Source of the DNA: a virus
Virus record (IMG/VR): IMGVR_UViG_3300030430_003357
Span: 1 to 22,362 of that record
Length of the DNA stretch: 22,362 nucleotides
Reading direction: 5' to 3' (one strand)
The position numbers and the translations under genes are program-made. The notes beneath the pieces are model-generated. The model was not told where the DNA came from, made no database searches, and worked only from the letters and a program-made list of their open reading frames with translations. Position 1 is the stretch's first letter. Each line of letters starts with the position of its first letter. Positions 628-20,687 of this stretch are shown piece by piece.

Positions 628-1857
628 TTAAGCGGCTGTAGAACCACCTAAAATCCAAACATCTGTATCTAATTTATAAAGTGTCACTATTGCATATCTA
701 GATTTAGATTTTGTATGAGAGTCAGTATGATTTAGAGTAACTCCACCGGCAGCTGAGAAGGTAATTTGTCCTGCCCCCTCTTGTACAAAGTTAATGTAAG
801 TTCCGATTGGGAAAGCAACCGTTGCATTTGTGGGAACTGTTATCGTTGTCCCTGACCCATTGTTAATCCTTTTTGTAATACCTGCATCATCTCTAACTAA
901 AGTATATGTAGTTCCTGTTTCTGTATTATATTTATTACCACCATATGACCAAAATAAACCCTCATATTTTGCGTCTGTACCATCTGTACCATTATCAATG
1001 ACTTTTGTTCCATTAGATGATTTTAAATCACCCGTGACATCACCAGTGACATTCCCGGTAACATTACCAGTTACACTCCCTGTCAAATCACCAGTGACAT
1101 TCCCGGTAACATCTCCAGTTACATTACCTGTAACATTTCCTGTAACGGCACCTGTTACATCACCAGTTACATTCCCCGTCAAATCACCAGTCACATTACC
1201 GGTAATATCACCAGTCACATTTCCTGTGTGAATACCAGTTGTGTTTCCAGTAAAGTTATTTGCAGTAACATTTATTGTACTAATAAGACCATTAACTGTT
1301 AAAGATCCTCCGATAGTCCCCCCAGTTAAACTCAGGAAACTAGACCCAGATACAGCTGTAGTTTGGATAGAGCTATCTGGGAATTTCAATCCTCCACTTA
1401 CAATCTGAATACTTCCATTAACACTTAGTTTATTAGTAGGTGCTGGTTCACTTACTCCTATATTACCATTAGCGCCAAGAATTGTCAAGTAATTTGAATC
1501 GAATGTATTACCATCATTACCTTTCAAAATTTTAAAATTATCATCGTTCGTCAATTTGAAGTCTGGATTACCACTACCTTCTAAATTTAATAGAATAGAT
1601 GACTCAATGGCGGTGTTACTTTCCAGTCTAAGTTTGACAGCTCCATTGAAATCTAAAGCCAAGGGTCCATCCATAACAGAGCCAGAAGTTAAAACAAAAG
1701 AACCATCAACATTATTAATTAAATCTTGAAAGGTTGAATTAGCAACATAGTATCTTGCGTCAGCAGCTAAGGTCTTAATAAGATTAACATCTCCCATCAA
1801 TTGTAGAAAACTATTAGATGAAGATAATGGACTAATTGGTAGAGTAATCGTAGTCAT
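628..1857 (-). CDS. Tail-fibre protein with GxxT tetrapeptide repeat shaft (409 aa)
   Basis: A modular fibre protein. Residues 1-60 form a helical/beta head, perhaps for attachment. Residues 129-170 carry the phage-fibre motifs GNIGVSEPAPTNKLSVNG and LKFPDSSIQTTA. Residues 179-190 (GGTIGGSLTVNG) match the style of a repeat in the 690-aa fibre. Residues 204-275 are 18 uninterrupted GxxT tetrapeptides, mostly GNVT or GDVT, suggesting a regular beta-structured shaft. Residues 315-409 form a C-terminal beta domain of a type frequent at the ends of marine phage fibres (TYTLVRDDAG, then TVPTNATVAFPIGTYINFVQ and WILGG near the end). It starts 4 nt after the 67-aa gene, with only a weak GGCAG-type ribosome site. 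Receptor binding is inferred. I see no S74 or Peptidase_G2 chaperone domain. Confidence 0.8.
   Translation of the reverse strand: MTTITLPISPLSSSNSFLQLMGDVNLIKTLAADARYYVANSTFQDLINNVDGSFVLTSGSVMDGPLALDFNGAVKLRLESNTAIESSILLNLEGSGNPDFKLTNDDNFKILKGNDGNTFDSNYLTILGANGNIGVSEPAPTNKLSVNGSIQIVSGGLKFPDSSIQTTAVSGSSFLSLTGGTIGGSLTVNGLISTINVTANNFTGNTTGIHTGNVTGDITGNVTGDLTGNVTGDVTGAVTGNVTGNVTGDVTGNVTGDLTGSVTGNVTGNVTGDVTGDLKSSNGTKVIDNGTDGTDAKYEGLFWSYGGNKYNTETGTTYTLVRDDAGITKRINNGSGTTITVPTNATVAFPIGTYINFVQEGAGQITFSAAGGVTLNHTDSHTKSKSRYAIVTLYKLDTDVWILGGSTAA
1033..1248 (-). repeat. Tandem 12-nt repeat encoding 18 GxxT units
   Basis: The DNA has a 12-nt periodicity encoding G-x-[V/I/L]-T, where x is mostly Asn or Asp. 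Codon choice varies between units, but a 26-nt segment is repeated exactly at 1039-1064 and 1087-1112. That offset is 48 nt, or four units. The first two units (GNTT, GIHT) are degenerate, and the run ends with GDLK. The near-identity at a multiple of the unit length indicates past expansion by unequal recombination or slippage without loss of reading frame. Confidence 0.85.
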
Positions 1858-2074: not shown

Positions 2075-5000
2075 TTAAATCTGTAGAGCGATAGCTCTTA
2101 AATCTTTTACTCTTGGTACAATATTTGAAGAACTACTTCTCAAAACAATCTTTAGACTAAAGTATTTGAATGTATCAAAGTTAGCACCAGAACTATTCTT
2201 ATATCTAAGTACACTGTTGTTAGCAGAGTTTTTAAATGCACCCAACAGTGAGTTATTGGAAGAGGGTACTTCATATTCTAATTCAATGAAGTCATCCTTA
2301 TTGACAATACTTGATACCGTATTCGAAGCTTGTGTTTCAACCAAGTTCAATTTAGTATAGTGTTTATCTCTAAAGTCATCTAAATCTTGCCCATTTTGAA
2401 AACGAGCATAAACATCAATCTCAGTGCTAGGTGGACGATATCCAGATACTAGTACTTTAATATCTTCAGCTTCTTGTCCATCTGCCAATACAATCTTCTT
2501 ACTAATATACTTTGTGCTAGAATTACCAAAGTTTACAATCTCATTTGAATTATCGTTATTAATCAGGTTATTTATGAGGATAACTGACCTACTTCTGCCG
2601 ATATCAATTACAGGTGAAAGTCTACTTGTACCAGTACTAATATTACCATCAATCCTAAGAGTCTTAGAAGAACTAGAAGACCTTGTAATGACTTCTTTTT
2701 CTGTATCTAAAAACTCGTTATTTTCAAATGGTTCAATTGAAATTGGTGTACTAGACATTGACCCAGAACCACTTGCTGTTGTTCTTGCTGTCCAACTAAC
2801 TGAGGTATCTAGATATCTTGCAAAAGAAATTTTTGGTACTAAAACATTATACTTAAAGTTACTGATACCAGTAGAGCGGAATGTTGCATTAGAGACTTGA
2901 CCTCGGTAGAAAATATCGGAAGCCAAATCACCAGTTGAATTATTTGCAATAACATCACCAGTAATTGGACTACTATATTGGATAAATCCACTTGAGGTAT
3001 TAGGAGTATGAGAATCAACAACTCCGCTGTATGTAGTAGAACCTCTTGTAAATGTTATAGTAGAACCAGAAGGAAGAGTTCCTTTGATATCAGCTTTGAA
3101 AGTAGTTGTATTAATAACTTTTCTAATCTGACCTGTATTTGAACCAACAGAAACTAAATCGTTTACTGTTAATGTCTCACCAGGTGCACCAGTCAATGTC
3201 ACCAATGACTCACCTCTAATTTTCTCACCTACATTAAATTTGATAGATGAGAACTCTGTACCTTGAATATAGTCATCATCTTCATTGGTATAAACAACTG
3301 TGCCATTTACATTAGTATCAAAATCAGCTCTCCATAAAGTAAATTGAATATCTTGATTATGTTTAGGTGTATAGTTTCTATCGTTAGAAGAAACATACAT
3401 GACACCTGCAGATGGTTGTTGGTCAATTAGAGAGTTGGTTGTAACATCTCTACCACCAAGTTCTGAGATCCAGAGTAAATAATCAGGATTAGAACCATCT
3501 GGTTTTACAACAAATGCATATTCAGTATCACCTCGTAGATATACAGGTTGGTCAAAGTAGAATGGTGTTGGTGATGATGCATCATTAGAAACATTAACAT
3601 CACCAGACTCAATTCTTTTGAAACCAAAAGGTACACGAACTGCAGTGACAATTCCGTTTACTACTTCTCTGAGTTCTATAGAAATACCAGCAGTAGAGCT
3701 TTTTGATTTGAAGTATAGGTCAATGGCACTAATGAATACACCATCAGCTCCAAGACCAAACTTATTATCAGCAAAGTCTAGATTTTGGAATTCAAACTCA
3801 CCCACTCTAAATGACTGAGCAACAGGGTCTTTATGTGCTTGAATTGCTGTGAAGTCAGAAGTTACTACAGTTTTCTTTTCAGCAATAGTATCATGTGTAA
3901 TCTTAGCTTCACGAGTGCTAAAGGTAATACCTCTTTGTGAAGATGATAATCCAATTGATGTATAATTAGTTACTGCAGAAGTTGATTCTGTTCCAACCTC
4001 AGTTGAGGTATTAGCAATATCGACTAATCTAAATGGGCGCTCACCTTGTCTAAACTTCAAGCTAGCTGTATTTGGAATTGTAAACATTCCAAAAACTGAA
4101 CCGTTAGCATTAGTCTCTAGTGCAGACCCAATGGTTGCTGTATTAGAGAAATTTTTATCAGTTGGTGTGACAAAATCATTTACAAGAATATTATCAAAGT
4201 AAGGATATACTCTCGTATTTGGACGCATACCAGTGGCTGCAAAACGAATTAATCTAGAACGCATATATGGAACAATATCTGTTCTAGTCACAAATGGTCC
4301 TGTCTTTTGTGTACGACTAAATGGTGAAACATTCAATCTAGTACCAGTACGAGTCTGTTCTTCTGTAGTTCTAATTCTGACTTCATCAATTGCACCATGA
4401 CCACCACCGGCAAAACTACCAGCTTGATTTAAATCATCACCGACATTCACAAATGCTGTCCCTAGTATCTCACGAGTCTCTCTTTCAGAACCAGCTACTG
4501 TTGACCATTCATTCCATTGTGTTCCCCAGGCCTGATCTAATTTCTGCCAGTTTGTAGCCAAATCTACATCCCATTGTACATCTGGTTGTGATGTAGTATC
4601 AACCCAGTGGTCAGCTTCTGGGAATAAACTTAGATTTCCTACCCAATTAAATGTTAGCTCACCGACAGGATTGATCGTCTTTGATGCCCATGGTTGGTCA
4701 ACATAAATCTGATGCGAATATGGTAATGTGAGTAGTTCACCCTCTGTTGGTTCTTGTATTGTATTGATAGTTGCAAGACCAGCATTATTATTGTTATTTA
4801 ATGTGGTGGTTGTAAATGTTCCTGTTACATCATGTAGATACAATCTAACACCAGAGGTATCACTATGAATACTCCTAATCGTACCTGATGCTGTTGCACC
4901 AGACAGAGATGACCCTGTATAAACAATATCTCCATTTCTGTATATTGCTGTATTACCAGAGATATCTAATCTAGCTTGTTTCCCTTTACGCGTAACATTA

Positions 5001-8000
5001 GATGATAAAGAACTATCATATTGAATATCCAAGTTATTCTGTTCGAACTTAGGTCTGAGCTCACCACGTTCTTTGTCGATTGAAACACTATATGATGGGT
5101 CTGTCAAGTCACCATTGTCATGACCAAAGAAAGCATCTACAAAGATACCGTTTTTAAATCTATTAATACCACTACCGTCTGGAATATTGAGATCTCTAGC
5201 AGCCTTTTCTAAAACATTAAGAGCCGTATAATATTCTAATCTATCAATACGACTAGTGATTCCAGAGATATCCTGCATCGTAAATCTGCGTTGGAAGAAA
5301 GGTTTTACCTTAACAGCCAAGTCACTTCTAGAACCACCTGTTTGTGAGTCATTAAAATTATATGAGTTCTCTAGAGATAAAGATGGAAATGGTGGAATAT
5401 TTAATAATGAAAGTGTCATAGTTTCTGCAGGTTCTGCAGGTGGAAATGGTCTATCAGCTGAGATACCTTTTACGACTTTTTTCTTACCATCCTTTCCAAG
5501 TACAACTCTATCAACTCTTGGTAAGAAGTGAGTAATATCAGTCTGAAATGTTTCGTTTGGTACAGGAACATAAGCACCAGAACTGCTGACTACTAAAGCA
5601 GTTTGTTCTACTGGATTTTCAACCGTAGTGCTGATATCTGATAAGGTTACATTAGTGATACCAGATGACTTTTGAACTGTTGGTCTAAAATCAATAGTAT
5701 CTCTCAAGTCAAATGTCTTGTTAGCGGTCGTTGAGGAATATCTTGGAATCTGTGGAGTAGCAATCGTACCAGCATTATCAGTTGATTCATTTGGATCAAT
5801 TGGATATGAGTCAACTGTAAAGAAACCAATACCGTTAGTGACATTATGGTCAAAGTAATCAAACTCAACAAGAATTTTATCAGATGTTGTGAGAGTAACA
5901 GTACTTCCTTCTTTTAAACTTAATGCAGACTGTTTGTAAACACTATCAGTAGTATTTCTCAAAATTCTAAAATCAGATACTAAGTTTTTATTAGTAGTTG
6001 AATATGTACTTCCCACATATACATTTCTTAGATTAAATACATCCGATACACCAAGAATCCATGGACCATTGATACCAGCACTATTTGTATTTAAATCTAA
6101 TTTAATAAAACAATTCTTAATTACATCTTTTGTAGCACCAACTGCATTCTCACGCTTATTATTAAATGTTACGGAGATACCCATAGAACTAGCTAGAGTT
6201 TCTTCAATATTAACTGTTACCTGTGTGCTAGAATTAACTGTAATAGACCTTGGATTACCTGAACTTCCATTAACTGTCATATCAAACTTATGACCAACAG
6301 GAAATACTTTTACGATATCATAAGTCGAACCACTTAAACTACTAACATCTAGTGTGTTATCTACTTCAATTTGTTGTGATGCAACAGATGTAATTCTAAC
6401 TGGCACATCAGCCGATGCTCCGTTTTTACCAGCGTAAATATCTGCACCAGTTTGCTTTAATTGAATATAATCACCGACACTTAACTTACTAAGGAAGTCA
6501 CCACTTGCAATTGCGATAGTCGTACTGGATAGTGATGCACTATATCCTAAACCAGCAGTTCTTGTTAAAGCTGATGACGAGATAACAAATTCTCTTTTTT
6601 GAGGATTATTTAATGACCCAACAGAATATGGGAACTCTTCTGTACCTCCAGCATGTACACCAGAAATAGTTACTAGTCCTGTACCACTAATTGCTACAGA
6701 GCTTTGAGTAGTATCTCTGAATACAAATTGCTTATTAGAAGTATTTGCTGTGGCACTTACACCAGAGAAATAAATGTTTCTATTAAATGCTGGTTCTTTG
6801 AGAACACATAACCCACTTTCTAAAACTGCATCAGCAAAAGATTGAGATCCACCACTACTAAGTCTAAAAGTTTTTACATCTGAAAAAGATTTATCAGTGG
6901 TATCCATGTTAATATCGAAAAGATATAAGAGATATTGAGCATCTAGACCAGTCCCACTATGATATTCAAAACCACGGATTTTTGCTGTACCAATCTGTGC
7001 TCCAGCGGAACTTCCTGAAGAAAATGTACCTGAAGAAACAACGGTTGATGCCTGGTCAAATAAAGTTACTTCACCTAGTTGGGTAACATCCCATGGACCA
7101 GCCACCTCGTTAACGATGACATAGTTACCAAAGTTAGTTGGAATTGAAACGCTGGTTTCTGTTTTCGTGTCGATACCTTTATCAGTATCAATAAATTCTG
7201 TAGTTAGAATTTCATTACGATATCCCATAACATAGGCGATACCAGGTTCAATACCGATAGCTAGTTTATTCTTATTTCCACCTTCTCCGGAGGTATATCG
7301 TCCATAGTTAGAACCAGTATTTAAATGTTCTTTTACATGAGTATTAATTTGTCTTAATTGATAGTTACCAGACTCTTCAAAGGTTCTTTTAGCTAGTTCT
7401 CTACCAATACTGTTGAATACAGTATCATCACGGATAGTCTTTACATTACCACGGTCAACCTCAAAGAGAGGAAAGAATGATTGTGTGTTAGCAACAGATG
7501 CAGAGATAAGAGGTTTCTTAGTCAAAGTTGGTGTGAGTTTAAGTCTATCGGCACCAGGTGCTGAATAGTTATATGAACCTGCAGCATTATCTAAAAGAGT
7601 TGTATCTGTGTTACTATTGACAATAGTTTCATTTACTTTTAGGCCAACACGATAAGTAGGTTTATTCGAATATTTTTCTAAGATAATAGTTTGTGAAGCA
7701 ACATTAATAAAATGTCCCTTAGAGAAAATGGCACCATCACCAATACTAAACATAGAACCAAACCCAAATGCATTACCTAGTGAAGTTGAGTTTGATGCAA
7801 TAGTATTAGCCTTCTGACCGGCACCACCGTCCGAAGTTTGATATACTAATTCTTCATTTAAACCAAATGTCTTATTGAGTTTTGATGTTCCACCATCTAG
7901 GTATTTTACTAGGAGAGTATTTGGTTCAACACCCTCTTTGGCGATAGCTTGAAAAACTTTAGCTCTGACACCAGTAGTCTGACCTTGAATAATAGCATTA

Positions 8001-8296
8001 GCAAAACCTGTTACTACAACAGACGAACCAGAAGAATCATTGTCTTGTAATTTTACAAAGGCTACATTTGCTTCATACTGAAAAGAACAACCATCTACAA
8101 TAGTTCCATCTTCATAAATGTTATTACCAAATCTTGCAACCTGATTTTGTAAAGCAGATTGGAGTTGATTTAACTCTCTTGTCTGCACAGCTAGTCCAGG
8201 TTTAAATAGGACTTTGTGATAGTTTTTTAATTTACCATTAGTTTCAAAATCATCAAAATATGGTGATAAATTAAAATTAGTTTCTAATTCAGACAT
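2075..8296 (-). CDS. Giant virion structural protein, DUF4815-like (2073 aa)
   Basis: The largest gene here, more than a quarter of the window. Residues 1-400 resemble the DUF4815 type of phage structural protein: NYHKVLFKPGLAVQTRELNQ near residues 25-44, then RFGNNIYEDGTIVDGC and, near 350-360, EPGIAYVMGYR. About residue 1340 there is a PYMRSRLIRFAATGMRPNTR segment, near 1489 DPVAQSF followed by FISAIDLYF, and near 1580 YLRGDTEYAFVVKP. The C-terminus has VPRVKDLRAIALQI. These segments recur, from memory, in very large virion proteins of marine T4-like phages. The remainder is beta-rich and Ser/Thr/Asn-rich. An AAGGT ribosome site precedes the ATG, 11 nt after gp8. It could be a baseplate-attached fibre or a large peripheral wedge protein replacing T4 gp10-gp12 functions; the sequence does not decide. 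No frameshift is visible. Confidence 0.85.
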   Translation of the reverse strand: MSELETNFNLSPYFDDFETNGKLKNYHKVLFKPGLAVQTRELNQLQSALQNQVARFGNNIYEDGTIVDGCSFQYEANVAFVKLQDNDSSGSSVVVTGFANAIIQGQTTGVRAKVFQAIAKEGVEPNTLLVKYLDGGTSKLNKTFGLNEELVYQTSDGGAGQKANTIASNSTSLGNAFGFGSMFSIGDGAIFSKGHFINVASQTIILEKYSNKPTYRVGLKVNETIVNSNTDTTLLDNAAGSYNYSAPGADRLKLTPTLTKKPLISASVANTQSFFPLFEVDRGNVKTIRDDTVFNSIGRELAKRTFEESGNYQLRQINTHVKEHLNTGSNYGRYTSGEGGNKNKLAIGIEPGIAYVMGYRNEILTTEFIDTDKGIDTKTETSVSIPTNFGNYVIVNEVAGPWDVTQLGEVTLFDQASTVVSSGTFSSGSSAGAQIGTAKIRGFEYHSGTGLDAQYLLYLFDINMDTTDKSFSDVKTFRLSSGGSQSFADAVLESGLCVLKEPAFNRNIYFSGVSATANTSNKQFVFRDTTQSSVAISGTGLVTISGVHAGGTEEFPYSVGSLNNPQKREFVISSSALTRTAGLGYSASLSSTTIAIASGDFLSKLSVGDYIQLKQTGADIYAGKNGASADVPVRITSVASQQIEVDNTLDVSSLSGSTYDIVKVFPVGHKFDMTVNGSSGNPRSITVNSSTQVTVNIEETLASSMGISVTFNNKRENAVGATKDVIKNCFIKLDLNTNSAGINGPWILGVSDVFNLRNVYVGSTYSTTNKNLVSDFRILRNTTDSVYKQSALSLKEGSTVTLTTSDKILVEFDYFDHNVTNGIGFFTVDSYPIDPNESTDNAGTIATPQIPRYSSTTANKTFDLRDTIDFRPTVQKSSGITNVTLSDISTTVENPVEQTALVVSSSGAYVPVPNETFQTDITHFLPRVDRVVLGKDGKKKVVKGISADRPFPPAEPAETMTLSLLNIPPFPSLSLENSYNFNDSQTGGSRSDLAVKVKPFFQRRFTMQDISGITSRIDRLEYYTALNVLEKAARDLNIPDGSGINRFKNGIFVDAFFGHDNGDLTDPSYSVSIDKERGELRPKFEQNNLDIQYDSSLSSNVTRKGKQARLDISGNTAIYRNGDIVYTGSSLSGATASGTIRSIHSDTSGVRLYLHDVTGTFTTTTLNNNNNAGLATINTIQEPTEGELLTLPYSHQIYVDQPWASKTINPVGELTFNWVGNLSLFPEADHWVDTTSQPDVQWDVDLATNWQKLDQAWGTQWNEWSTVAGSERETREILGTAFVNVGDDLNQAGSFAGGGHGAIDEVRIRTTEEQTRTGTRLNVSPFSRTQKTGPFVTRTDIVPYMRSRLIRFAATGMRPNTRVYPYFDNILVNDFVTPTDKNFSNTATIGSALETNANGSVFGMFTIPNTASLKFRQGERPFRLVDIANTSTEVGTESTSAVTNYTSIGLSSSQRGITFSTREAKITHDTIAEKKTVVTSDFTAIQAHKDPVAQSFRVGEFEFQNLDFADNKFGLGADGVFISAIDLYFKSKSSTAGISIELREVVNGIVTAVRVPFGFKRIESGDVNVSNDASSPTPFYFDQPVYLRGDTEYAFVVKPDGSNPDYLLWISELGGRDVTTNSLIDQQPSAGVMYVSSNDRNYTPKHNQDIQFTLWRADFDTNVNGTVVYTNEDDDYIQGTEFSSIKFNVGEKIRGESLVTLTGAPGETLTVNDLVSVGSNTGQIRKVINTTTFKADIKGTLPSGSTITFTRGSTTYSGVVDSHTPNTSSGFIQYSSPITGDVIANNSTGDLASDIFYRGQVSNATFRSTGISNFKYNVLVPKISFARYLDTSVSWTARTTASGSGSMSSTPISIEPFENNEFLDTEKEVITRSSSSSKTLRIDGNISTGTSRLSPVIDIGRSRSVILINNLINNDNSNEIVNFGNSSTKYISKKIVLADGQEAEDIKVLVSGYRPPSTEIDVYARFQNGQDLDDFRDKHYTKLNLVETQASNTVSSIVNKDDFIELEYEVPSSNNSLLGAFKNSANNSVLRYKNSSGANFDTFKYFSLKIVLRSSSSNIVPRVKDLRAIALQI

Positions 8297-8307
8297 TTTA
8301 TTTTACC

Positions 8308-9891
8308 TTAAAACCTTACAATTAATTTTACATCTTCTGTTTGGTCGAATGAACGACTTACTGGTAATCTATTTTCTACATATAATACTTCACCTTTGAA
8401 GTTGATAAAAGGTCTATTCTCTATGGACTCAATAACAGATGTAACTGCAGATGTATTTCCTGTTAGTAATTCACCAGTTTGATACTCTCCGTCTAAACCT
8501 ACAGTTCTGATAACACCAGTTGTTCCACCAGTATTTGTGTTTGCAAAAGAAACAAATCTTGACAGACTGACACTTGTATTTGATACTAAATGTTCGTCTG
8601 GATCATAACTGCCAGACTTAGTAGATACTGTAATCTTAGTTGTCAAATCATAGACTGTACCATCTGCTCTACTTCCATTTAATAACAAGGGGTCTTTCAA
8701 TACACCAACAATTCTGAAATCATTATTAGCAACAATTGTTCCTGACTCGTTTCCACTTATTCTCACATTTAAGGTAACATTCTTAGCGTTTAATTCATTT
8801 ACAGGATCAGACCCATGTCCTCCGATTGGTGGTATACTAGCTGAAATTAAAGCCCCTACACCGTGTGATGTATTAGAAGTAATCGCAGGTTTTACTTTAC
8901 TGTAGTTAGCTCCACGATTAATAATTATAACTTTATTTAGGGCAGAACCCGAAGACAAACTACATGGAAGAGCAACATTAGCATATGCTGAGAAATCTCT
9001 ACCGTCACCACCAATATTAACTTTAGGTCCAATATTATATGTTGAAGTAGTATCTAATACTGGTGAAAAGGCAGAGCCAACTGTTACTGTTCTAGTTGAA
9101 CCTTCATAGTTTGTAATATTTCTTAACTGACCAGCACCAGTTCCACCGGTGATGTAAATAACTGAGTTACTATAAGCATCATCCGTAGTTGATACTTCTC
9201 CTGCAGCTGCAGTTGTATTTTCTAAAACTACTGTGGTTGAATCTGTAACACTATCTAAAGTTCCCATGGTTCCCAGATAACCAGACCCACCGTTATCTGT
9301 CTTAACGAACTCAATAGCACCATTTACTGCAGCTTGTTGTACTGTCCATTGAATACTTCCATCATTTGATTCTAGTTTTTTAGTAGGAATAAAATTAGTT
9401 GTACCAAACTTTAACTGGTCACCTGCAGTCACAGTATACATGAATTTCCATCTGTATCCATCTGTTAACTCTGTAATGATACCAGTATCAGTATGAGTTG
9501 GTTTAACAGTAGATAAAGCACCACCATTATTATCGATACACTTGTAAACATTATAGGTATCTGTAATCACATAAAACTGAGAACTATACAATGAGCCATT
9601 AGAATCTGTGTATGGAGTATATACATTACCAGAGGTCCAAAGATACTTGGATGCAACATGTGATACATCACTAGCAGAGACACGCTTGGCAATAATCATG
9701 TTTCTCCAGACATTATAGCTGGATGCAATCACACTATCAACTGGAGTTGGTGGATTGGCATCACTTGACCATGGATGTGCCCGAGCTAAAAATACATAGT
9801 ATCTAGAGTTTATGGTTGAGTCTTCTGTGAATGACTCAAAAAACTGCCTAGCATTATTGAGTTGAAATTTATGTGTGATTATACCGGACAT
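8308..9891 (-). CDS. 8: Baseplate wedge subunit gp8
   Basis: Homologue of T4 gp8, the wedge protein that binds the gp7/gp10 region and helps lock the hexagonal baseplate. The N-terminus has the family pattern: short beta start, YYVFLARAHPWSSDANPPTP (residues 31-50), then YNVWRNMIIAKRV. This parallels T4 gp8, where PWSS is followed by PTDSV and a W-rich helix. Residues 145-152 (GYRWKFMY) match the T4 DGYVWEYLFE area. The last 26 residues (LYVENRLPVSRSFDQTEDV, then KLIVRF) align closely with the T4 C-terminus, which has MENRPP and DQTEEI. At 527 aa it is far longer than T4 gp8 (334 aa); the extra beta sequence lies mainly at about residues 190-470. An AAGGAAT ribosome site lies in the 9-nt gap after the 690-aa gene. 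Confidence 0.93.
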   Translation of the reverse strand: MSGIITHKFQLNNARQFFESFTEDSTINSRYYVFLARAHPWSSDANPPTPVDSVIASSYNVWRNMIIAKRVSASDVSHVASKYLWTSGNVYTPYTDSNGSLYSSQFYVITDTYNVYKCIDNNGGALSTVKPTHTDTGIITELTDGYRWKFMYTVTAGDQLKFGTTNFIPTKKLESNDGSIQWTVQQAAVNGAIEFVKTDNGGSGYLGTMGTLDSVTDSTTVVLENTTAAAGEVSTTDDAYSNSVIYITGGTGAGQLRNITNYEGSTRTVTVGSAFSPVLDTTSTYNIGPKVNIGGDGRDFSAYANVALPCSLSSGSALNKVIIINRGANYSKVKPAITSNTSHGVGALISASIPPIGGHGSDPVNELNAKNVTLNVRISGNESGTIVANNDFRIVGVLKDPLLLNGSRADGTVYDLTTKITVSTKSGSYDPDEHLVSNTSVSLSRFVSFANTNTGGTTGVIRTVGLDGEYQTGELLTGNTSAVTSVIESIENRPFINFKGEVLYVENRLPVSRSFDQTEDVKLIVRF

Positions 9892-9900
9892 TTTAATTCC

Positions 9901-11973
9901 TTATCTAATATACCAGAGTTCATGATCTTCATCGATATCTTTCATTTTAACCCATCTTGGATTTGTGGGTGAACCACTTAAAATTTGTACTTGACCAACA
10001 AGACCTACAATCTGCCACTCTGGTCTTTCTTCTCTAGTCTTATATTCTAAAGTTTCATCATAATCTGGATTAATAGTTTTTGTGTAATTTGTAACAGTTT
10101 CATACTCTTGACCAGATGGGATATCATCTAGTGAGGTAACAGTATGCTCAGTTGGTCTATTTTCACCTTCTTCATTTACAGCCCAAGTTGTCCACTGATA
10201 GAAAACATGTTTTGTTCTAATGGTATCGCCCCAGACTGTTTTGAGATATTTGTTATGCCATTCTCCTAAGTCACTACCACCAATTGATGATGATGACCTT
10301 GGTGGACGAATAACACCAATAACATGGTCTGTACTTACCGTAGAATTAGCTGCTGAAATTTTACCATCAACCAATACCACTGGAGTACCATTAGCAATTG
10401 CCAAACCATCCGTAGTCTCGAAATATTCTGCATAGTCACTTCCAGACTGTGTTGTACCGTTAATTTGCACAGTTCCTTCAAGATTCATAACATCACTAGT
10501 ACCACCTACGATTTCTGCACCACCATCAAAAGTAATTCTAGCCTGTCTACCAGAACCCCTAATTCTCAATGCTGGTGACCAATCGACACCACTTTGACCT
10601 CCAAGATTACTAGTATTGTTTCTAATACCACTAATAATTAATGCAGCTTCTCTTGAATTAGTTTCACTAGAAGTACCTGAAGTTGTATTATGAGCTTCAA
10701 TCTGTATTCTAGAGTGAGCACGAATTTTGTTAGTGGATGTAGTATTTCTATCGTCACCAGTAGTTGTTTTAAATCCAATACCGATATCTAAACTTCCTGC
10801 GGAGGTTGAGGTTTGAATTTCAAGATTACCACCAGAACCACCAACAATTTCTTGACCACCATCATACAGAATTCTTGCTTGTCTTCCAGCACCTTTGATT
10901 CTTAATGCAGGTGAAAAGTTTGTGGTTGAGTCACCTGCTGCATTTGAGTTGTCATGCCGGATGGCAGCAATCGTCATAGCAGATGTTAAACCTAATAGAT
11001 TTGAAATATTGAAAGATGAGATGCCTGTTGTATTAGTTCCACTTACTGTTGCTGTAGGTGTAGTCAAAGGAGCAGCAAAAGATAAAACTGGAATTGTACT
11101 AGTACCAGCTACAACGATTTCATTGGTTGTACCTGTGATAGAGTCTACAGCACCACCTGAACCACTGACACCGGAGATTTGTGTATCAACATAATTCTTA
11201 GTTGCAGCGTCTTGTGCGTTTCCTGGATCTCCTAATCCTGTAATTTTACTAGTACCCATTGCAATGGCACCAGACATTGTTCCACCAGTCAATGATAGTT
11301 GTAAAGCATCATTTGTGTCAACATAATTCTTAGTGGCTCCATCTTGAGCAGATACTGGATCACCCAAACCAGTGATTTTATTAGTTGACATGGCTAAATC
11401 ACCAACTAATGTACCACCACTTAGATTTAAGAAACTACCGCCACCGGTTGCAACCTGGCTGTCAACATAAGCTTTAGTTGTTGCATCTGTACTTAAAGTT
11501 GGTGTACCAAGGTCAGTGATTTTGTTAACACCCATTGAGATAGGACCATTCATAGTACCGCCGGCAAGAGGTAATTTTCCGGCAACACTAGTAGTCACGG
11601 AGGCAATGTAGGTATTAGTGTTAGCTAAATCAGATGCTTGTTTAGCAGACTGTGTTGTTAAAGAACTTTGTACACCATTTAGATTTGTTTGAACTGAGGC
11701 AATATAGGCATTAGTATTTCCTAATGCTGTTCTTTCTCTAGCTGAAACTGTATTTAAATTAGATTGTACAGTAGAAATGTAAGCATTAGTATTAGCCAAT
11801 AAAGTCTGAACATAAGTATTAGAAGCAGCTCTAGTCAGATTACCACTTCCATCTGTTCCTACTTTGTCATAGACTTCAGTAAAGTTTTGATTAATCTTGT
11901 TACCTGCTGTCCGCAGTGTATCACCAGTACCATCATTAGCGACTGTACCAATGTCAACAGATAGTTTTGCCAT
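9901..11973 (-). CDS. gp9/gp10-headed fibre protein with Peptidase_G2-like C-terminus (690 aa)
   Basis: A modular fibre. Residues 5-36 (VDIGTVANDGTGDTLRTAGN then KINQNFTEVY) match the N-terminal motif of T4 gp10 and gp9, implying a baseplate-anchoring head. Residues 55-135 hold three NTNxYI-containing helical repeats. Residues 138-265 hold three copies of a GGTM-G-I-MG-KITGLG-DATKNYVD module. Residues 354-379 and 466-491 are near-identical SPALRI-G-GRQARI-DGG-EIVGG segments. Residues 512-690 begin GSDYAEYFET, then VIGVIRPP and EWHNKYLKTVWGD, resembling the Peptidase_G2 (IMC autoproteolytic) chaperone domain of phage neck-appendage proteins. It has its own TATAAATA late-promoter candidate and an AGAGGT ribosome site. 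Inferred role: side fibre or wedge-tip protein that self-trims after trimerisation. The catalytic residues were not verified. Confidence 0.83.
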   Translation of the reverse strand: MAKLSVDIGTVANDGTGDTLRTAGNKINQNFTEVYDKVGTDGSGNLTRAASNTYVQTLLANTNAYISTVQSNLNTVSARERTALGNTNAYIASVQTNLNGVQSSLTTQSAKQASDLANTNTYIASVTTSVAGKLPLAGGTMNGPISMGVNKITDLGTPTLSTDATTKAYVDSQVATGGGSFLNLSGGTLVGDLAMSTNKITGLGDPVSAQDGATKNYVDTNDALQLSLTGGTMSGAIAMGTSKITGLGDPGNAQDAATKNYVDTQISGVSGSGGAVDSITGTTNEIVVAGTSTIPVLSFAAPLTTPTATVSGTNTTGISSFNISNLLGLTSAMTIAAIRHDNSNAAGDSTTNFSPALRIKGAGRQARILYDGGQEIVGGSGGNLEIQTSTSAGSLDIGIGFKTTTGDDRNTTSTNKIRAHSRIQIEAHNTTSGTSSETNSREAALIISGIRNNTSNLGGQSGVDWSPALRIRGSGRQARITFDGGAEIVGGTSDVMNLEGTVQINGTTQSGSDYAEYFETTDGLAIANGTPVVLVDGKISAANSTVSTDHVIGVIRPPRSSSSIGGSDLGEWHNKYLKTVWGDTIRTKHVFYQWTTWAVNEEGENRPTEHTVTSLDDIPSGQEYETVTNYTKTINPDYDETLEYKTREERPEWQIVGLVGQVQILSGSPTNPRWVKMKDIDEDHELWYIR
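10501..10914 (-). repeat. Duplicated SPALRI/GRQARI segment inside the 690-aa fibre
   Basis: Residues 354-379 (10914-10837) and 466-491 (10578-10501) differ at only a few positions over 26 residues: SPALRIKGAGRQARILYDGG against SPALRIRGSGRQARITFDGG, both ending EIVGG. The spacing is 112 residues. The preceding 20 residues are also similar (AAIRHDNSN against ISGIRNNTSN), so a larger unit was probably duplicated and then diverged. Confidence 0.8.
11179..11562 (-). repeat. Three tandem KITGLG/YVDT modules inside the 690-aa fibre
   Basis: Three units of about 36 residues start at residues 138, 187 and 230. The shared skeleton is GGT[ML]xGxxxM, then KIT[DG]LGxP, then DxATKxYVD. Units two and three are closest (KITGLGDP, QDGATKNYVDT or QDAATKNYVDT), so they are the most recent duplication. 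Such modules are typical of trimeric phage fibre shafts. Confidence 0.85.
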
Positions 11974-19331: not shown

Positions 19332-20687
19332 CTATGCCGGATTTAGATCAATCTTACCACCAGACTTGACAGTAACATCACTTCCGGTTGACTCGATATC
19401 CATAGCTGAAGTTGATACAAATTTTGCAGATGATGCTGCTCCAATATCGATATTACTGGCTGTACCCACTGACATATTACCACCAGATACAGATGTTAAT
19501 GTACCAGTGATTTGTTCTGCTTGATTACCAGAAACGATACTAACATTATTAGCGTTAATAGTAGAATTAAAATTATTCTGTATTTTTTGTGTGTGATTTT
19601 GTTGAACTTGTTCATCTCTGTTACCACCAACACGTTCAAATTTATTACCCTCAATATTAGTCGATTGGTCCGTTACAACATCTTTGATATCACTGCCTTG
19701 AATTTTTGTAATACGATCTCCACGGACTGTCACATACTGGTCACCTTCTACTTCAATATATTGATCTCCTTGGACATACATTTTAGCATTTCCGGCAACA
19801 GTAACAGATAGATTTCCTTTAATATAAACATTTCTATTCTGTACTACAATCTCATAATCGTTACCCATAACCTTAGTTATTTTAGTTCCATCTTGTTGTG
19901 TCTCAACAAAAGAACCAGACTTATGATATTCATGAATACGTTCGGCCATAGGTGTGTCATCAACCTCAAAGACATGACCACTCTCTGAAACATGTACATG
20001 ATTTAATGGATATGTTGATGCTGCACCAGACTCATATGTGCCATCAATCTCTCCTCCATATCTTGGATTAGGTTCATTCCAAGTAGGGACTTGACCATCT
20101 GAAGTAACATAATCTGCAGTGCCTTTATCATCAGCCCCAGTAACGGATGGTGCTACAGCTGTAGGAACAGGACCAAGTGCAGCTCGTCCAGCAATTTTGG
20201 TTTCATAATGTGTGTCTCGTGTAGGACGGTCAGCTAATTTTGTAGGGAGAATACCATCATTAACATTCAAGTTTGCTTCCTGTTCACCTCTAGCTGGACG
20301 AGGTAAATCAGGTTCATCTATTAAATCTGGATAGATACCATTGAATCCTAGTTTTTGGTCCGGGGCCTCAGTTGGTATACCAGATACAGAACCCATAATC
20401 ATAGGCTGTTGAGCATCTTCCCCATCAAGGAAAAAACCAATAACCCATGACCCTTCTACTAATCCAGTCGCAGACCTACCAATACCACTGATAGCTGCAG
20501 ACGTAATTGGTTGCATACATTGGGCCCATGGTAATGATTTTGTAGGCACTTTAGTTTTATCATTTGTATGCCAATTAAAACAACGAACTCGTACACGCCC
20601 CATCTTCAAAGGATCATTACGATCTTCTACAACTCCGAAAAACCAGATAAAGTTATAACCTAAAAACTCTTCTTTAAAATCAACCAT
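19332..20687 (-). CDS. 5: gp5-like baseplate hub/spike protein lacking a lysozyme domain
   Basis: Counterpart of the T4 gp5 spike. Residues 1-105 form the OB-fold domain, with WFFGVVEDRNDPLKMGRVRV (15-34), LPWAQCMQP (52-60) and GLVEGSWVIGFFLDGEDAQQ (75-94), the VgrG/gp5 pattern. Residues 106-205 are a linker rich in Pro and Asp. Residues 210-265 hold YPLNHVHVSESGHVFEVDDT and ERIHEYHKSGSF, typical of the region entering the spike in marine T4-like gp5 proteins. From about 265 a triple-stranded beta-helix is indicated by V-x-G-D/N repeats such as YVQGDQYIEVEGDQYVTVRG. At 451 aa it is shorter than T4 gp5 (575 aa), which has a lysozyme domain between OB fold and helix; here no such domain fits. 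The start overlaps the gp27-like stop (TAATG). Confidence 0.9.
   Translation of the reverse strand: MVDFKEEFLGYNFIWFFGVVEDRNDPLKMGRVRVRCFNWHTNDKTKVPTKSLPWAQCMQPITSAAISGIGRSATGLVEGSWVIGFFLDGEDAQQPMIMGSVSGIPTEAPDQKLGFNGIYPDLIDEPDLPRPARGEQEANLNVNDGILPTKLADRPTRDTHYETKIAGRAALGPVPTAVAPSVTGADDKGTADYVTSDGQVPTWNEPNPRYGGEIDGTYESGAASTYPLNHVHVSESGHVFEVDDTPMAERIHEYHKSGSFVETQQDGTKITKVMGNDYEIVVQNRNVYIKGNLSVTVAGNAKMYVQGDQYIEVEGDQYVTVRGDRITKIQGSDIKDVVTDQSTNIEGNKFERVGGNRDEQVQQNHTQKIQNNFNSTINANNVSIVSGNQAEQITGTLTSVSGGNMSVGTASNIDIGAASSAKFVSTSAMDIESTGSDVTVKSGGKIDLNPA

Follow-up and report, generated by a model that had tools for sequence, protein, structure and literature searches.

The 18-unit Gly-x-x-Thr (GxxT) array of the 409-aa fibre gene sits in a cassette, and in one relative, the closest, the entire cassette has been exchanged for another. 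Its ancestral unit is an octapeptide, the phase of which was kept through length changes. The array is probably a beta-structured shaft, and the reading that we prefer, with modest confidence, is that of a swappable, beta-rich shaft of a putatively trimeric fibre, one that resembles the triple-stranded beta-helix of gp5 and has the VxG motif doubled. Shafts of this kind are common in marine phages, and this one looks like a structural module that can be exchanged, and not like a quick length-switch.

The fibre gene and its surroundings

The window, i.e. the whole stretch of 22,362 nucleotides analysed, holds the last part of a block of T4-like virion genes on the minus strand, and belongs to a marine bacterial virus (Table 1). 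Over 478 aa, the VrlC homologue next to the fibre gene has 34% identity with that of cyanophage S-TIM4. It marks where the fibre region of marine T4-like phages begins; the annotated order in S-TIM4 is gp8, VrlC, small ORFs and the fibre-type ORF108. PMC7029224 describes, for marine T4-like phages, a variable host-recognition cluster downstream of VrlC that extends from VrlC to gp14.

Because the C-terminal part of the 409-aa protein matches phrog_21510 (E 2.7e-19) and the tail family phrog_8780 (E 1.3e-14), a segment ahead of the array matches the fibre Bd2133, and the gene is positioned after VrlC, we classify the product, as judged from its sequence, as a fibre-type protein. The start of its N-terminal part, LSSSN-FLQLMGDVN-LKTL, is also present in distant relatives (L037-L047). 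On the plus strand an open antisense frame (830-1231, PVTSPVTFPVT...) faces the array; it is probably a by-product of the repeat and not a gene. The window also encodes a 690-aa fibre (9901-11973) with a T4 gp9/10 N-terminal domain and a Peptidase_G2 autoproteolytic domain (PF11962, E 3.6e-29), inside which there is a 132-nt tandem repeat (1.8 copies, 11182-11419).

Table 1. Features of the fibre gene and of the neighbouring virion genes, in window coordinates
Feature	Position	Strand	Basis
Fibre gene, 409 aa	628..1857	(-)	ORF, ATG start
Conserved N-terminal part (~residues 1-134), common to L004	1457..1857	(-)	blastn
Residues 104-194, Bd2133-like (trimeric MAT fibre), containing FPDSSIQTTA	1276..1548	(-)	phmmer against PDB, 8ond_A, E 8.9e-11
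Shaft cassette, 424 nt, missing from L004	1033..1456	(-)	blastn blocks end at 1457 and 1032
18-unit GxxT array, residues 204-275, nine 24-nt GNVTGDVT-type octads	1033..1248	(-)	repeat and codon analysis
First three array units, GNTT-GIHT-GNVT, with the Ser/Thr-then-His signature known from other arrays	1213..1248	(-)	
26-nt exact repeat, copy 1	1039..1064	(-)	sequence
26-nt exact repeat, copy 2, 48 nt from copy 1	1087..1112	(-)	sequence
Linker GDLKSSNGTKVIDNGTDGTDA and C-terminal tip domain, residues 276-409 and stop	628..1032	(-)	L004 comparison, phrog
VrlC/DUF4815 homologue, 2073 aa, upstream neighbour of the fibre gene	2075..8296	(-)	DUF4815 E 2.6e-50; phrog_358
Baseplate wedge protein	8308-9891		phrog_438 E 1e-89
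gp5 homologue	19332-20687		Gp5_OB E 2.4e-23; Gp5_trimer_C 52.7 bits

Growth and exchange of the array

An earlier reading of this DNA, made from the sequence only, had described an uninterrupted run of 18 GxxT units, and this is what we found; when the protein was shuffled 2000 times, GxxT runs reached 4 units at most. The exact 26-nt copies 48 nt apart are also there, as one pair, which is the only exact repeat of at least 18 nt within the array; an exact repeat of 26 nt was reached by only 2 of 1000 arrays with permuted synonymous codons. The 12-nt tandem unit of the sequence-only reading is seen as a period, but it understates the copied unit, which is 24 nt long and encodes the octapeptide GNVTGDVT. 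Tandem Repeats Finder reported periods of 12, 24, 48 and 72 nt, with the top scores at 48 and 72. We take the copied unit to be 24 nt because codon identity between units follows even unit lags (0.50 at even and 0.23 at odd lags), a gap matched by 9 of 20000 permutations of synonymous codons. The gap is driven by the Thr codons: same-codon pairs made up 38/72 at even lags and 4/81 at odd lags, and ACT was used in 8/9 odd units and in 0/9 even units (Fisher p 0.0004). Asp was found in 0/9 odd and 6/9 even units (Fisher p=0.009), thus the alternation of Asn and Asp claimed earlier holds as an odd/even phase but not by neighbour shuffling (p=0.068). The array grew through duplication of this 24-nt, eight-residue unit. 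Octad phase in the codons was tested in 26 arrays including that of the window, several of them near-identical S-RIM2 versions, and none of the 25 distinct arrays other than the window's fell below p 0.16; nor were even run lengths favoured elsewhere (22 even, 25 odd).

The units are under purifying selection, the protein being held while synonymous sites drift (pS 0.685, pN 0.184, pN/pS 0.27 between units). The expansion had been called recent. This fits the pair at the 48-nt lag, which alone looks recent, but at such a pS the array overall is not young.

In the closest relative, L004 (IMG/VR 3300044272_003285), a blastn match of 94.6% identity over 744 nt, upstream genes included, ends at window position 1457, and the DNA is 90.9% identical from 1032 on. 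Between these flanks there are 424 nt in the window versus 1171 nt of different sequence in L004. Both cassettes are in frame (lengths 1 modulo 3). The array and ~70 residues before it are exchanged for ~390 others, the right junction of the swap being the last base of the array, and the protein identity to L004 is 88% for the anchor and 97% for the tip (over 134 aa). A marine phage can thus change its shaft cleanly while anchor and tip stay nearly identical. The L004 shaft consists of fibre repeats of the GIGT type, and L042 has a fibre that shares 75% identity with it over 132 aa. Since this match exists despite the distant VrlC of L042 (~56% identical to that of the window), it argues that shafts move between phages; recombination would swap one shaft for another and leave anchor and tip untouched. 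More distant relatives have other, often short fibres without the array.

The sequence-only reading had also suggested that slippage or recombination would allow rapid changes of length, and had proposed to compare copy number among relatives. The S-RIM2 isolates, whose names run from 1999 to (as read) 2013, had runs of 8 and 16 units in all 17 that were read. A 701-nt query over both runs found a 701-nt span in 60/60 of the S-RIM2 matches listed (from 63 records containing most of the query; one of the 60 is a RefSeq duplicate), and ACG-2014b had a single span of 493 nt in 21/21 matches listed, some of which are RefSeq duplicates. The span of ACG-2014g, 421 nt versus the 493 nt of ACG-2014b, differs by a net 72 nt, which equals six units and, as judged from the spans, would be located in the array. 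S-BM1 has one 8-unit run versus the 8 and 16 of S-RIM2, a difference between species of one genus. Homologous arrays are therefore of stable length within species and differ in length between species, and no copy-number difference between close relatives was found in them. It must be noted that this constancy was measured in homologous arrays of other phages and not in the window's own population: a pattern search and searches with the fibre ends found no second copy of the window's array, and the ends alone as queries matched only the same contig and L005.

A contingency locus, in which slippage or recombination in the tandem DNA often changes fibre length and tunes host binding, is quite improbable because lengths are constant within species among the S-RIM2 and ACG-2014b matches listed, and we rejected the length-switch reading on these. 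The exact 26-nt pair and the variation of array length between species would suit it, as would the recombination of other in-gene repeats in passaged S-TIM4, but the diverged synonymous sites between units leave only short exact tracts for slippage and the repeat of S-TIM4 is of another type than GxxT. PMC6224464 reports 15 clustered synonymous changes in ORF108 of passaged S-TIM4, ascribed there to within-gene recombination. In this gene (L197:11210-17920) we found a pair of 120-nt (40-codon) stretches, 43 residues apart, which are identical in protein and differ at exactly 15 nt, and this pair fits the reported cluster. No GxxT run was listed in our scan of ORF108 and its long near-identical pairs all represent one 43-residue repeat, thus S-TIM4 was rejected as a direct case of GxxT recombination. 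It shows no more than that a fibre gene of the VrlC region is able to undergo such an exchange.

Fold and packing of the shaft

A monomer model of a 115-residue fragment (residues 184-298) predicted, with moderate confidence (pLDDT 74-79 in the array core), a beta-solenoid with a strand-turn every four residues and no helix. The full-length AlphaFold2 model, based on an alignment of 10 rows, was poor (mean pLDDT 42.8) and was set aside. The sequence-only reading had offered a stacked beta-solenoid or an Asn/Asp metal-binding ladder. Its beta structure is probable in the light of the fragment model; the ladder gained no support and was dropped, because in 105 runs from other phages Asn and Asp cluster and do not alternate (NN 427 observed vs 351.6 expected, DN 136 vs 181). 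As that reading had stated, the array is not collagen: its Gly period is four through all 18 units, and a collagen-like fibre, with a Gly period of three, was rejected.

For a census of units, loci were fetched by a His-free pattern (at least 120 loci, in 2 of which the match was not covered by a 60-aa open frame) and reduced to 60 ORF clusters, which are a sample. In this sample 702 of 745 units had V, L, I, F or M at position 3. Leu at position 3 of two adjacent units was seen 7 times vs 27.6 expected (0/2000 shuffles as low), and a Ser/Thr unit was followed by a His unit 16 times vs 2.1 expected (0/2000 shuffles as high; contigs L133 and L144 overlap, and their ORFs were left out of this count). 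Because of the hydrophobic position 3, the avoidance of Leu-Leu and the pairing of Ser/Thr with His, the array sequences point to a packed core formed by position 3, and not to a loose linker. The window array contains one Ser/Thr-His step, GNTT-GIHT; such a step may be an interior polar one that holds water or an ion. His tetrads occurred in 10/59 clusters of the sample obtained with the His-free pattern. Our earlier His counts were biased, as one of the six peptide patterns used for fetching was HTGNVTGD; among the cluster representatives of that His-biased sample (L014, L025, L027 and others), Ser/Thr at position 3 precedes a GxHx unit in 68/69 cases.

These core rules, and the pN/pS between units, would be unexpected in a free linker, and a disordered, entropic spacer with no fixed fold is therefore improbable, although the low complexity of the array (rich in Gly, Asn and Thr) and the low mean pLDDT of the full-length model would agree with it. 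A glycine-zipper alpha-helix with GxxxG packing, e.g. a membrane-inserting segment, is brought up by the Pfam family Gly-zipper_YMGG (PF13441), which the isolated array hits exactly at the cutoff (28.9 vs 28.9 bits). The whole protein scores 17.4 bits, under the cutoff, and the moderate-confidence fragment model is free of helix. Moreover, V, T, N, D and G, which are poor helix formers, make up most of the array, and N or D is present in most units, unlike in a membrane helix. We consider the zipper extremely improbable and rejected it as a score match of low-complexity sequence. The match of this family, at its curated cutoff, to the beta-like array at 1033-1248 could cause marine phage proteins to be misannotated.

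Another fold to be weighed is a narrow single-chain beta-solenoid, with 2, 3 or 4 tetrads per turn, formed by each chain as a small helix of the bactofilin type, the fibre trimerising elsewhere. The regular solenoid of the fragment model speaks for it, as do the VIA-align matches to bactofilin BacA (2n3d, Z 9.2, rmsd 2.8, 95 aligned) and 5dqa (Z 8.0, rmsd 1.9, 97 aligned), and the His-His spacing, which peaks at 4 tetrads (22/47) in a sample biased to His-containing arrays. However, such middling Z values are common, Foldseek against the PDB gave no match at E up to 0.001 (one at E 6.9), and the best match in BFVD (E 0.0035) is itself another predicted phage protein. AlphaFold2 over-predicts beta-solenoids for repeats, according to PMC11795689. 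On balance we think the single-chain solenoid unlikely, if still a serious candidate, and place the gp5-type triple helix, likewise a candidate, somewhat ahead of it.

If the shaft is gp5-like, as we prefer, the array would be the distal shaft of the virion fibre, between the Bd2133-like segment and the C-terminal tip domain. The octapeptide GNVTGDVT would pack as a beta-helix, most likely with three chains wound around one another in the manner of the gp5 central spike; residue 3 of every tetrad (V/L/I, sometimes H) would face inward and G-N/D would form the turn. Compared with GNVTESVN of Aeromonas phage gp5, the second half of the octad would have turned into a second G-N/D-V-T. Such a shaft could act as a stiff modular spacer, which fixes the distance between tip and virion.

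Fibre shafts determine how receptor-binding tips are presented, and our searches found no solved structure that matches the GxxT shafts of marine phages. We met no description of the GxxT repeat in the open-licence literature, where we looked for repeat strings such as GNVTGNVT and for tetrapeptide-repeat beta-helix phage fibres. It is possible, but we propose it only tentatively, that GxxT arrays share a fibre fold which is widespread among marine phages and still to be solved. This would be a beta-helix with a turn per four residues and a packing code of its own (a hydrophobic residue at the third position, no Leu next to another Leu, a fixed Ser/Thr-then-His step producing rings of polar side chains inside the shaft, where they might hold an ion or water). 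It would either descend from the gp5 octad or have converged on it, and phages would trade it as a cassette. The simple rules at the level of the unit make the repeat a tractable target for structure determination. The feature itself is real and ranks as ordinary to interesting: a shaft cassette with a clear growth unit, exchange of the whole cassette, an unsolved fold and unusual packing rules.

Comparison with known systems

The C-terminal triple-stranded beta-helix of gp5 in T4-like phages (PF22178, PF06715) resembles the array in VxG, in G-N/D and in the N/D at the second position. PMC4576200 gives VxGxxxxx as the motif of the gp5 beta-helix, with the second-position N/D forming a surface hydrogen-bond ladder. 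The gp5 octad has Val at positions 3 and 7, as has the array, and the Aeromonas phage octad named above is three residues away from GNVTGDVT (the gp5 octads of Aeromonas phage Ahp1 are GNVTETVE, GNVTESVN and GNVTSTVK). The array reads VTG[ND]VTG[ND], i.e. VxG is present in it every 8 residues and every 4 as well, and its Gly recurs every 4 residues whereas that of gp5 recurs every 8. It lies in a fibre and not in a puncturing spike, the window having a separate gp5. Against Gp5_trimer_C the array scored 18.5 bits, with the cutoff at 30.9 and the window's own gp5 at 52.7, and in the PDB search unrelated proteins with Gly every four residues scored as well as or above gp5. The gp5 matches of the array may be compositional.

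MAT (mosaic adhesive trimeric) fibres are described, in PMC10769870, as trimeric beta-helices with exchanged ends. The MAT fibre Bd2133 of Bdellovibrio (PDB 8ond) matches the fibre over the segment given in Table 1; this match precedes the GxxT array, which is itself unmatched, and Bd2133 is a bacterial protein.

Closest in the repeat itself are structural proteins encoded beside gp13 in cyanophages (S-RIM2, Syn9, S-P4, S-BM1, ACG-2014g). They are far longer than the fibre of the window and have different anchors and ends, the arrays tested (S-RIM2, Syn9) show no octad phase in their codons, and the runs listed contain no His tetrad. Nevertheless, these proteins are of the fibre type, lie immediately ahead of the neck genes and are built of the same GxxT tetrad.
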